From: Acidobacteriota bacterium
GTDB lineage: Bacteria; Acidobacteriota; Terriglobia; UBA7540
Reading direction: 5' to 3'
Length of the DNA stretch: 47,237 nucleotides
Assembly: GCA_902812365.1 (NCBI GenBank)
Contig: CADDZC010000025.1
Location: 1 to 47,237 of the forward strand
Under the pieces are notes generated by a model. That model worked only from the letters and a program-made list of their open reading frames with translations. It was not told where the DNA came from and searched no databases. The translations under genes and the position numbers were made by a program. Shown here one piece after another: positions 2,699 to 47,237 of the stretch (position 1 is the first letter of the stretch; every line of letters starts with the position of its first letter).

Positions 2699-3024
2699 CA
2701 AGCGATCCAAGAGCACCCATGGCCCTCGGCTGGCGAGCGGCGCAGAATCAGTGTGCCAAAGCAGTTGAAAAGGCTTGCGGACCCCAGATCTACCGGAGAC
2801 GGAAGTGGAGTCTCACGCTTACGGCGCGCCTCTCCCTGTCGGCGCCAATCCGGGAACGACGCCGGTTTGACGAATTGGACGCATGAACCGCCGGCTAACA
2901 GCGTGTTGGTCATTTTTTTGTCAAGATTTCGGCGAGGCGTCCACCGTCCAGCGGGTTGTGGTGTATGATAACAACCTTCGGATGCCGAGCGTCGGGAGTG
3001 TCGATGAGCTGGGCGGGCTGAAGG
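2699..3024 (+). other. Intergenic stretch without a recognisable gene
   Basis: No frame on either strand looks like a protein. A TATGAT at 2964-2969 could be a -10 box for the response regulator at 3025, but I see no matching -35 box. Confidence 0.5.
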
Positions 3025-3708
3025 ATGGATAAGATCCTGCTGATCGAAGACGACCAATCTATCCATAAAGCTTTGAGGTTACTCTTTGAGCCGGAAGGCT
3101 TTGCTGTCGAAATCGCCTCCGACGGGCGAGCCGGAATCGACGCCTTCCGGACGTCAAAACCCGAGCTCGTCATCCTGGACTTGACGATGCCAGAAATGAA
3201 CGGAAAAGACGTATGCCGTGAGATTCGGAAGCTGTCCCCCACCCAGCCGATTATCATTTTGAGTGCTGCTTCGGATGAAATCAATAAGGTAGTCCTGCTG
3301 GAACTCGGGGCTGATGATTATTTGACGAAACCATTCAGCCCCAAGGAGCTTCTGGCGCGTGTTCGGGCCCTGCTTCGGCGGGCCCGGCAGCCGGCCAAGG
3401 AGACTCTCGAGCATTACTCTTTCGACGATGTAACCGTGGATTTTGCCAAAATGGAGCTGAGGCGCGGCGACCGCCTGGTTCGCCTGACACCGCAGGAGTT
3501 CAAGATACTGAGATACCTATTCCAGAACCCCGAGCGCGTCATCCCGCGCGATGAGCTCCTGAACGAAGTTTGGGGTTACCAGTGCTATCCGACGACGCGG
3601 ACGGTGGACAACCACATACTCAAGCTTCGGCAGAAGCTCGAAAAGGATCCTGCCAACCCACTTCACTTCCGTACCGTCCACGGCGCGGGATACAAGTTTG
3701 TACCCTAG
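3025..3708 (+). CDS. OmpR/PhoB-family response regulator
   Basis: 227 residues, a normal length for the family. The receiver domain (1-~118) has the acidic pocket E8-D9-D10, the phosphoacceptor D52 in VILDLTMP, and the conserved K102 in LTKPF. The C-terminal winged-helix DNA-binding domain (about 130-227) has the typical LTPQEFKIL, V(I)PRDELL and TVDNHILKLRQKLE segments and ends GAGYKFVP. It should act as a DNA-binding transcription factor switched by phosphorylation. The sensor kinase starting at 3894 on the same strand is the probable partner, although a 185-bp gap separates them and the signal is unknown. Confidence 0.95.
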   Translation: MDKILLIEDDQSIHKALRLLFEPEGFAVEIASDGRAGIDAFRTSKPELVILDLTMPEMNGKDVCREIRKLSPTQPIIILSAASDEINKVVLLELGADDYLTKPFSPKELLARVRALLRRARQPAKETLEHYSFDDVTVDFAKMELRRGDRLVRLTPQEFKILRYLFQNPERVIPRDELLNEVWGYQCYPTTRTVDNHILKLRQKLEKDPANPLHFRTVHGAGYKFVP

Positions 3709-5689: not shown

Positions 5690-6985
5690 GTGAGTCCGGC
5701 GACTGGCAACCTCGAAATCAACACCCCCCTCGCCGCTTTTTACCGCCTCGAAAGGATATCGGCGACTCTGCCCGAGATCGCCTCCGTCAGCGGTGAAGTC
5801 CACGCGGCTTTATCCGCCCTGAATATTCCACCGCACCAGCTGCGCGAGCGCGATATCGCGCTCGCGGTCGGGAGCCGCGGTATCGCGAAGCTACGAGAAA
5901 TCGTACACGCCACCGTCCAGTGGCTCCGGGCCGCCGGCGCTCGCCCTTTCGCTTTTCCCGCTATGGGCAGCCACGGCGGAGCCACCGCCGAAGGCCAGCG
6001 GCAAGTGCTGGCCGAATACGGCGTTACGCCGGAAAACATCGGTTGTCCCATCCGCTCCGATATGGCGACGGTGATTACGGGCACGACGCCGCACGGCGAT
6101 CGCGTGTTCATGGATCGCAATGCCTGGCACTCCGATGGTGTCGTTGCGATCAATCGCGTCAAACCCCATACTGATTTTTACGGCAGGATCGAAAGCGGCC
6201 TCACCAAGATGATCGCCATCGGAATGGGCAAAGCCGACGGAGCGCGCGAATGTCATCGCGCCATCCGCAAATACGGGAATGAGCAGGCCATCCGCGCGGC
6301 GGCTCAAGTCTCACTGGCTACCGGAAAAATTCTTGCTGGACTCGCCGTGGTTGAAAATGAGTTGCACCAGATCGCGGCCATTCGGGCCGTGCGTCATGAA
6401 AATCTTTTTGCCGTGGAGGAAGAAACTCTGCAGCTGGCGCGCCGGTTGGTGGCCCGCCTACCGTTCACCCAACTCGATCTTTTGATCGTCGACGAAATGG
6501 GAAAGAACGTGAGCGGCACGGGCATGGATACGAAAGTGATCGGACGCGGTATCCGTCTGCCCAAGCAAAAGCCGGCGGACGTGCCGGCGATCAGCCTTAT
6601 CTACGTGCGGGACTTGACCGACGAGAGCGATGGCAATGCTCTGGGCGTCGGTCTTGCCGACCTCGTGCACCAGCGGCTGTATCGGAAGATTCGTCTTGAA
6701 GAGACTTACGTGAACGTCCAGACGTCGCTTAATCTCCCCGTGGCGCGCGTTCCCATGCACGTCGGCTCAGACCGCGAGGCGTTTGATCTGGCGCTCGCCG
6801 CCCTCGGCAGCCCCGCTCCTTCCGAGCAACGGCTTGTTTGGATTCGCAACACGCTCGAGCTGGACCACCTTTTCGCTTCGGAACCGCTTCTCCGAGACCG
6901 AGAAGCCCTCGCCGGATGGCGGCTCGCGCCTGAACTGCGGGCGCCGGTCTTTGACGGTTGCGGCAACGTGGTGTCGTGGGCGTAA
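5690..6985 (+). CDS. LarA-like DUF2088 family protein (nickel-dependent racemase superfamily)
   Basis: About 431 residues from the GTG at 5690, which has GAAGGGG about 9 nt upstream and gives the usual family length. A TTG at 5639 overlapping the kinase stop would add 17 residues. Family features are AMGSHGGATAEG in the N-terminal domain, INRVKPHTDF, and ESGLTKMIAIGMGK. The family includes lactate racemase LarA and other 2-hydroxyacid racemases/epimerases that use a pyridinium nickel-pincer cofactor made by LarBCE. No larB, larC or larE lies in this window, and this subgroup differs from LarA around the active site, so calling it lactate racemase would go too far. It sits directly behind a two-component system. 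Confidence 0.8.
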   Translation: MSPATGNLEINTPLAAFYRLERISATLPEIASVSGEVHAALSALNIPPHQLRERDIALAVGSRGIAKLREIVHATVQWLRAAGARPFAFPAMGSHGGATAEGQRQVLAEYGVTPENIGCPIRSDMATVITGTTPHGDRVFMDRNAWHSDGVVAINRVKPHTDFYGRIESGLTKMIAIGMGKADGARECHRAIRKYGNEQAIRAAAQVSLATGKILAGLAVVENELHQIAAIRAVRHENLFAVEEETLQLARRLVARLPFTQLDLLIVDEMGKNVSGTGMDTKVIGRGIRLPKQKPADVPAISLIYVRDLTDESDGNALGVGLADLVHQRLYRKIRLEETYVNVQTSLNLPVARVPMHVGSDREAFDLALAALGSPAPSEQRLVWIRNTLELDHLFASEPLLRDREALAGWRLAPELRAPVFDGCGNVVSWA

Positions 6986-46094: not shown

Positions 46095-46589
46095 GTGCCC
46101 GCAACAGCGATTAGCAAGGGAGCTCCAGCGTTTGAACTATTCGATCTGAAAGGCGAGCGGTATCGGTTGCAGGAGGGACTGGCCCGAGGGCCACTCTTGA
46201 TTGCGTTCTTTAAAGTTGCCTGCCCCACGTGCCAGTATGCCTTTCCCTTCGTCGAACGGATTCACCGGCAGTTCGTTGACCCGGGCGCCCAAGTTTGGGG
46301 TATTTCGCAGGACGATGTCGAGTCCAGCCGCGGCTTCGCCGAGCGTTATGGAGTGACGTTTCCTATTCTCATCGATGAGCCGCCCTACGCCGCTTCCCGC
46401 GCTTACGGCGTGCGGTTCACTCCGACCTTGTTCTTGGTCGACTCCAACGGTCACATCTCGCTCTCTAGTGACGGTTTTTCGAAGTCCGACCTCATCGAAA
46501 TCCAAAAACGGCTGGCTCAACATTACTCGCAGACGGTGCCGCCGCTGTTCCGTGCCGACGAAAAAGTTCCCGAATACAAACCTGGGTGA
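46095..46589 (+). CDS. Thioredoxin-fold peroxiredoxin/TlpA-like protein with CxxC motif
   Basis: 164 residues from a GTG with GAGGAGGAAGAGG just upstream. AhpC/TSA-like fold: APAFELFDLKGERYRLQEGL, then LLIAFFKVACPTCQYAFPFVERI with a CPTC redox pair, GISQDDVESSRGFAERYGVTFPIL, and the cis-proline loop VRFTPTLFLVD. It has no signal peptide, so cytoplasmic. It should reduce peroxides or exchange disulfides; the CPTC arrangement is closer to TlpA/BCP-type than to typical 2-Cys peroxiredoxins. The organism also has bshA, so a bacillithiol-linked partner is possible (inference). Confidence 0.85.
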   Translation: MPATAISKGAPAFELFDLKGERYRLQEGLARGPLLIAFFKVACPTCQYAFPFVERIHRQFVDPGAQVWGISQDDVESSRGFAERYGVTFPILIDEPPYAASRAYGVRFTPTLFLVDSNGHISLSSDGFSKSDLIEIQKRLAQHYSQTVPPLFRADEKVPEYKPG

Positions 46590-46916: not shown

Positions 46917-47011
46917 TGGCGGAAGTGTGTCGGAATCGAACCGACCGGTCTACCGGAGGCAGACCCGCAGGATTTGAAGTCCTGGGCGAACACCAGCCCG
47001 CATGCACTTCC
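46917..47011 (-). tRNA. selC: Selenocysteine tRNA (anticodon TCA)
   Basis: 95 nt with encoded CCA. Read on the minus strand: acceptor GGAAGTGC against ACACTTCC (seven pairs, the eighth is C-A), discriminator G and CCA. The D arm is the bacterial tRNA-Sec hallmark, six pairs GCGGGC/GTTCGC around a TGGT tetraloop. The anticodon stem CAGGA/TCCTG encloses CTTCAAA (anticodon TCA). The long variable arm GGTCTGCC/GGTAGACC closes on TCC, and the T arm carries TTCGATT. It reads UGA as selenocysteine with SelA, SelB and SelD, none of which is in the window. Confidence 0.93.
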
Positions 47012-47180: not shown

Positions 47181-47237
47181 CGGGGCGTGGCGCAGCCTGG
47201 TAGCGCGCTTGCCTTGGGCGCAAGAGGTCCCCGGTTC
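47181..47237 (+). tRNA. tRNA-Pro (TGG), cut by window end
   Basis: Acceptor 5' strand CGGGGCG, D arm GCGC/GCGC around AGCCTGGTA, anticodon stem CTTGC/GCAAG with loop CTTGGGC (anticodon TGG), then the start of the T arm (CCCCGGTTC). The 3' end is beyond the window. Confidence 0.9.

Follow-up and report, generated by a model that had tools for sequence, protein, structure and literature searches.

The window, that is, the whole stretch of DNA analysed here (47,237 nucleotides), is the entire contig C25 of a draft genome (G000; 3.5 Mb, 97% complete, estimated contamination 2.5%) from an uncultured member of the Acidobacteriota, class Terriglobia. It carries a gene for a selenocysteine tRNA (tRNA-Sec), and the features considered below are the following:

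46095 to 46589, plus strand: gene for a peroxiredoxin/ResA-like protein with the cysteine (not selenocysteine) motif CPTC, running towards the tRNA-Sec gene (Pfam AhpC-TSA, 71.7 bits)
46917 to 47011, minus strand: tRNA-Sec gene (selC), anticodon UCA, encoded CCA (ARAGORN and RF01852)
47004 to 47011, minus strand: 5′ acceptor strand GGAAGUGC, with C8 at 47004 (sequence and pair table)
46986 to 47001, minus strand: D arm, 6-bp stem GCGGGC/GUUCGC with tetraloop UGGU (Rfam alignment)
46975 to 46977, minus strand: anticodon UCA (ARAGORN position 35)
46947 to 46965, minus strand: long variable arm GGUCUGCC-UCC-GGUAGACC (Rfam alignment)
46929 to 46945, minus strand: T arm, 5-bp stem GUCGG/CCGAC (Rfam alignment and pair table)
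46921 to 46928, minus strand: 3′ acceptor strand ACACUUCC, with A66, facing C8, at 46928 (sequence and pair table)
46917 to 46919, minus strand: encoded CCA tail, with G73 at 46920 just before it (read from the sequence)
47181 to 47237: tRNA gene whose anticodon reads TGG (proline), cut by the contig end

ARAGORN reported tRNA-SeC (tca) at 46917–47011 on the minus strand, and a search over the window with the Rfam model RF01852 matched 46921–47011 with 70 bits (E 2.2e-12), well above the gathering cut-off of 47 bits. An earlier sequence-only reading had called the 6-bp D stem with tetraloop, the TCA anticodon, the long variable arm and the encoded CCA diagnostic for bacterial tRNA-Sec; every one of these features is present, and the two programs, with a good covariance score on the interval, bear the assignment out. 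Seven acceptor pairs (GGAAGUG/CACUUCC) are followed by C8 facing A66, the D stem contains two G-U pairs, the variable arm has eight layers of which one is G-U, and the acceptor/T arm comes to 8 + 5 = 13 layers with 8 nt on both acceptor strands. The score, UCA, G73, the long variable arm and the 6-bp D stem with 4-nt loop by which bacterial tRNA-Sec is recognized are thus found together. The next-best RF01852 matches in the same genome reached 50.6 and 48.3 bits, as against 70, and such lower matches were left uncounted because weak matches, like cross-matches to other tRNAs, were also obtained in 14 of 14 control genomes. The gene at 46917–47011 is the single clear tRNA-Sec of this genome.

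Homologues of the protein encoded next to the tRNA-Sec were found in named Terriglobia and Acidobacteria genomes. The CPTC gene, a conserved neighbour within the family, was found at 17 of 29 related loci, convergent with tRNA-Sec in all 17 and usually about 300 bases away, and was not found within the flank examined at the remaining 12. As a selenoprotein candidate this neighbour was ruled out, its motif being CPTC here and in all relatives that show that stretch. A GC3-filtered listing of TGA codons in the window, judged by eye rather than by homology search of each frame, gave no selenoprotein gene, that is, no in-frame TGA with open frame on both sides in a redox motif.

Selenium machinery and genes with in-frame TGA

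The tRNA-Sec had been taken to imply a selenoproteome, to be checked by looking for selA, selB and selD and for SECIS hairpins after in-frame TGA codons. This expectation was borne out. All three genes are present in the same genome above their curated cut-offs, selA on C10 (577 bits), selB on C8 (330 bits) and selD on C1 (371 bits). The selD gene has one in-frame TGA itself, at AGUAAK, where E. coli SelD has its catalytic cysteine, and its neighbours are a LarB-like gene and an apparent seryl-tRNA synthetase gene, both identified by reading of the sequences.

At least eight intact genes, selD and seven others, carry an in-frame TGA at a redox position, a minimum that comes from a few family searches and not from an exhaustive genome scan. 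Three are peroxiredoxins of the TxxU type with one TGA each (FTGGU on C67, DTPGU on C64, FTPVU on C15), one is a peroxiredoxin-like gene of the UPFY type on C1 with a single TGA (FGUPF), and three are AhpD-like CxxU genes, again with one TGA each (CEYU on C94, CVYU and CPFU on C67), whose products all score above the TIGR01926 cut-off. Contig C67 (L269) by itself accounts for three of these genes, the FTGGU peroxiredoxin and two of the AhpD-like type. The suspicion that genes ending early at TGA may be misannotated selenoprotein genes proved apt for at least these eight, which annotation taking TGA as a stop only would shorten. Throughout this clade, annotation is likely to truncate genes that stop at TGA; this one genome contributes at least eight such enzymes.

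A ninth, deiodinase-like gene (G000:C59:11588-11866, L138) has an SYTUPPF motif with TAG stops besides the TGA, and is apparently a decayed selenoprotein gene. Formate dehydrogenase of the Sec-FdhA type was rejected, as cysteine stands in the best match (CHAPS) and a second large match resembles NuoG, and the SelW-like Rdx family is absent from the genome.

Peroxiredoxin, SelD and AhpD-like proteins are known prokaryotic selenoprotein families (PMC13188914). An earlier count for Acidobacteria gave 4 proteins in 3 families (PMC1794560), and 3 selenoproteins were given for Occallatibacter riparius (PMC12013277). The selenocysteine trait and the known families are shared with these published selenoproteomes, whereas the number differs, at least eight here versus 4 and 3. 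The selenoproteome appears to be genuine and of moderate size.

SECIS hairpins and UGA codons in relatives

SECIS-like hairpins were found downstream of the in-frame TGA in most of the eight genes. Within the single genome, hairpin scores separated weakly from those of controls (p 0.018 and 0.005), and a comparative test was used instead; by a simple hairpin rule applied to this genome alone, the C64 and C67 peroxiredoxins (2 of the 8 genes) score poorly. Of these two, the C67 peroxiredoxin was covered by the comparison. The stretch GGCGUAUCAGGCUGAUAUCGCC or close variants of it, 22 bases that begin some 15 bases downstream of the UGA, is common to 28 Sec peroxiredoxin sequences, among which conserved residues use their commonest codon in 98.5% of cases inside the stretch versus 64% outside. 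It folds into a hairpin with a GGC loop, and the stem is kept in variants such as UACCA-GGA-UGGUA (L392), GCCUAUCA-GGC-UGAUAGGC (L395) and GGAUAUCA-GUC-UGAUAUCU (L391), with compensatory changes among them; natural variants refold at -10.5, -11.3 and -9.5 kcal/mol. In the cysteine homologue L390 the AYQADI residues are kept, two codons are changed synonymously and the hairpin is lost. Comparison of relatives rescues the C67 hairpin, and conservation of the peroxiredoxin SECIS is strong enough for it to be used as a probe when related genomes are searched. The AhpD-like CxxU genes of relatives nearly all have a perfect hairpin 17–23 bases after the UGA whose loop has G at position 1 or 2, their stems differing between subfamilies while pairing is kept; this is the pattern known for bacterial SECIS elements.

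The genomes compared are drafts, many or all of them metagenome-assembled. With the C67 peroxiredoxin as query against 37 genomes, the best match had exactly one TGA, as its sole stop, in most. A TGA was found in a listed peroxiredoxin homologue in 30 of the 31 genomes with a detected tRNA-Sec, and none in the listed homologues of 4 of the 6 genomes without one; the two exceptions, G007 and G017, which have TGA without a detected tRNA-Sec, are 66% and 80% complete. Fisher's test for this association gave p 0.001, a guide rather than a strict probability as the genomes are related. The one genome with tRNA-Sec and no TGA among its listed peroxiredoxins was G005. On these comparisons, recoding of UGA is well supported.

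The tRNA-Sec of G005 (L065, L415) is deviant, with a 7-nt 3′ acceptor strand, and its contig also holds one AhpD-like gene that has a UGA and a SECIS.

The eighth layer of the acceptor arm

The C-A at the eighth acceptor pair had been expected to weaken the 8-bp helix usual in bacterial tRNA-Sec. C8 does face A66, so that the Watson-Crick eighth pair of the E. coli type is missing here, but the premise of a usual helix did not stand, as a non-canonical layer 8 is the norm in Acidobacteriota and in the sampled Bacillota. Within the tRNA-Sec family, 28 members were parsed; the base opposite C8 is A in 16, U in 9 and G in 3 of them, which leaves the layer unpaired in 25 of 28. Among 133 parsed tRNA-Sec of Acidobacteriota (five unparsable tRNAs, one of them that of G005, being excluded from the layer-8 counts), standard pairs occur always at positions 1–6, in 132 at pair 7 and in 38 at pair 8, and layer 8 is unpaired in about 70% of the phylum. 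With duplicates removed, pairs 3–7 are clearly above column shuffles, whereas pair 8 is standard in 37 of 128 distinct sequences versus 34.8 expected (p 0.33); with one tRNA-Sec per taxonomic family the figures are 21 of 61 versus 16.1 expected (p 0.047). Layer-8 pairing in Acidobacteriota is thus unselected or only weakly selected, a point that matters for what SelB and EF-Tu recognize in tRNA-Sec. In the papers available to us, we found no description of such a phylum-wide lack of layer-8 pairing.

The out-group consisted of named plasmid records and viral contigs. Layer 8 is G-A in the Bacillota plasmid records of Pusillibacter, Acetoanaerobium, Enterococcus and Terrisporobacter, and also in Ligilactobacillus after the start is shifted by one base; it is A-U in Pseudomonas, Burkholderia and Caballeronia, U-A in Ilyobacter and C-G in E. 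coli-like contigs. The non-Watson-Crick types are C-A, A-A, A-G and C-U in Acidobacteriota and G-A in the sampled Bacillota. A Watson-Crick eighth pair is a trait of the E. coli type and not a defining one for bacterial tRNA-Sec at large, which suggests that tools and reviews taking 13 Watson-Crick pairs as the standard describe one type only.

Compared with the 8/5 tRNA-Sec of E. coli, the gene described here has the same UCA, 6-bp D stem with tetraloop, long variable arm, G73, 8 + 5 layers and encoded CCA. In E. coli, however, pairs eight to ten (C7-G66, G49-U65 and C50-G64), reported to favour SelB and to reject EF-Tu (PMC9976931), stand where C-A, G-C and U-A are found here. In the 12-bp (7/5) variants described with Secmarker, the 3′ acceptor strand is only 7 residues long, often with a bulge (PMC5330540); like our tRNA, they fall short of 13 canonical pairs in the acceptor/T arm, but our tRNA has all 8 nt on both acceptor strands. 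It is conceivable, though we hold it to be rather unlikely, that in Acidobacteriota and Bacillota a layer 8 kept non-Watson-Crick, and not a pair like the C7-G66 of E. coli, is what SelB recognizes and what keeps EF-Tu off, the textbook antideterminants then being a proteobacterial special case. It may be that the non-canonical layer takes on the same role, that SelB and EF-Tu in this acidobacterial clade read the tRNA elsewhere, or that the layer drifts freely.

The plasmid record labelled Klebsiella pneumoniae (L474, NZ_CP061968.1) carries a tRNA-Sec that resembles those of Bacillota, with layer 8 G-A, and contamination is possible.

Function of the tRNA and rival readings

We put at roughly 97% the probability that the gene at 46917–47011 encodes a working tRNA-Sec, acting with selA, selB, selD and eight intact UGA genes. 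Serine charging by SerRS calls for G73 and the long variable arm, SelA conversion for the 6-bp D stem and its tetraloop, and decoding of UGA for the UCA anticodon; all of these are present. By analogy with the known bacterial pathway, SerRS would charge the tRNA with serine, SelA with selenophosphate from SelD would convert it to Sec-tRNA-Sec, and SelB would carry this to SECIS-marked UGA codons, the products being mainly thiol-peroxidase-type enzymes and SelD itself. A non-Watson-Crick layer 8 is found across the phylum, and C8-A66 most probably leaves the function of the tRNA normal.

One could argue instead for a UGA suppressor or selC-like tRNA inserting cysteine or serine, in the manner of selC* tRNA-Cys or allo-tRNA. 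In fact, such tRNA-Sec-like tRNAs exist, with allo-tRNAs in Acidobacteria too (PMC7609411), yet selC* and allo-tRNAs have 8/4 or 9/3 arms, whereas G73, the 6-bp D stem with tetraloop and the 13-layer arm are those of tRNA-Sec. The presence of selA, selB and selD, and of UGA codons with SECIS hairpins at redox positions where selenium is relevant, makes this reading very improbable. Still less credit can be given to the C8-A66 mismatch as a sign of a decaying, non-functional gene: one acceptor pair is indeed broken, but every other pair is intact, and genomes with conserved Sec genes have the same layer unpaired. For practical purposes, the phylum-wide pattern refutes decay.

That the in-frame TGA codons act as normal stops or are scars left in pseudogenes, the machinery serving SelD or selenouridine only, is equally hard to believe. 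The C59 gene with its TAG stops would agree with scars, but in eight otherwise open genes the TGA stands at the catalytic position, relatives keep it, and the sequence that follows it is under constraint even at synonymous sites.

A working tRNA-Sec with its selenoproteome is a sound but mostly ordinary finding; what it adds to the papers available to us is how large the selenoproteome is for an acidobacterium, the conservation of the peroxiredoxin SECIS, and a layer 8 that goes unpaired across the phylum. As a minor observation, the genome G041 (L064) carries two different tRNA-Sec genes, at 3001–3099 and 6650–6748, 3.6 kb apart.
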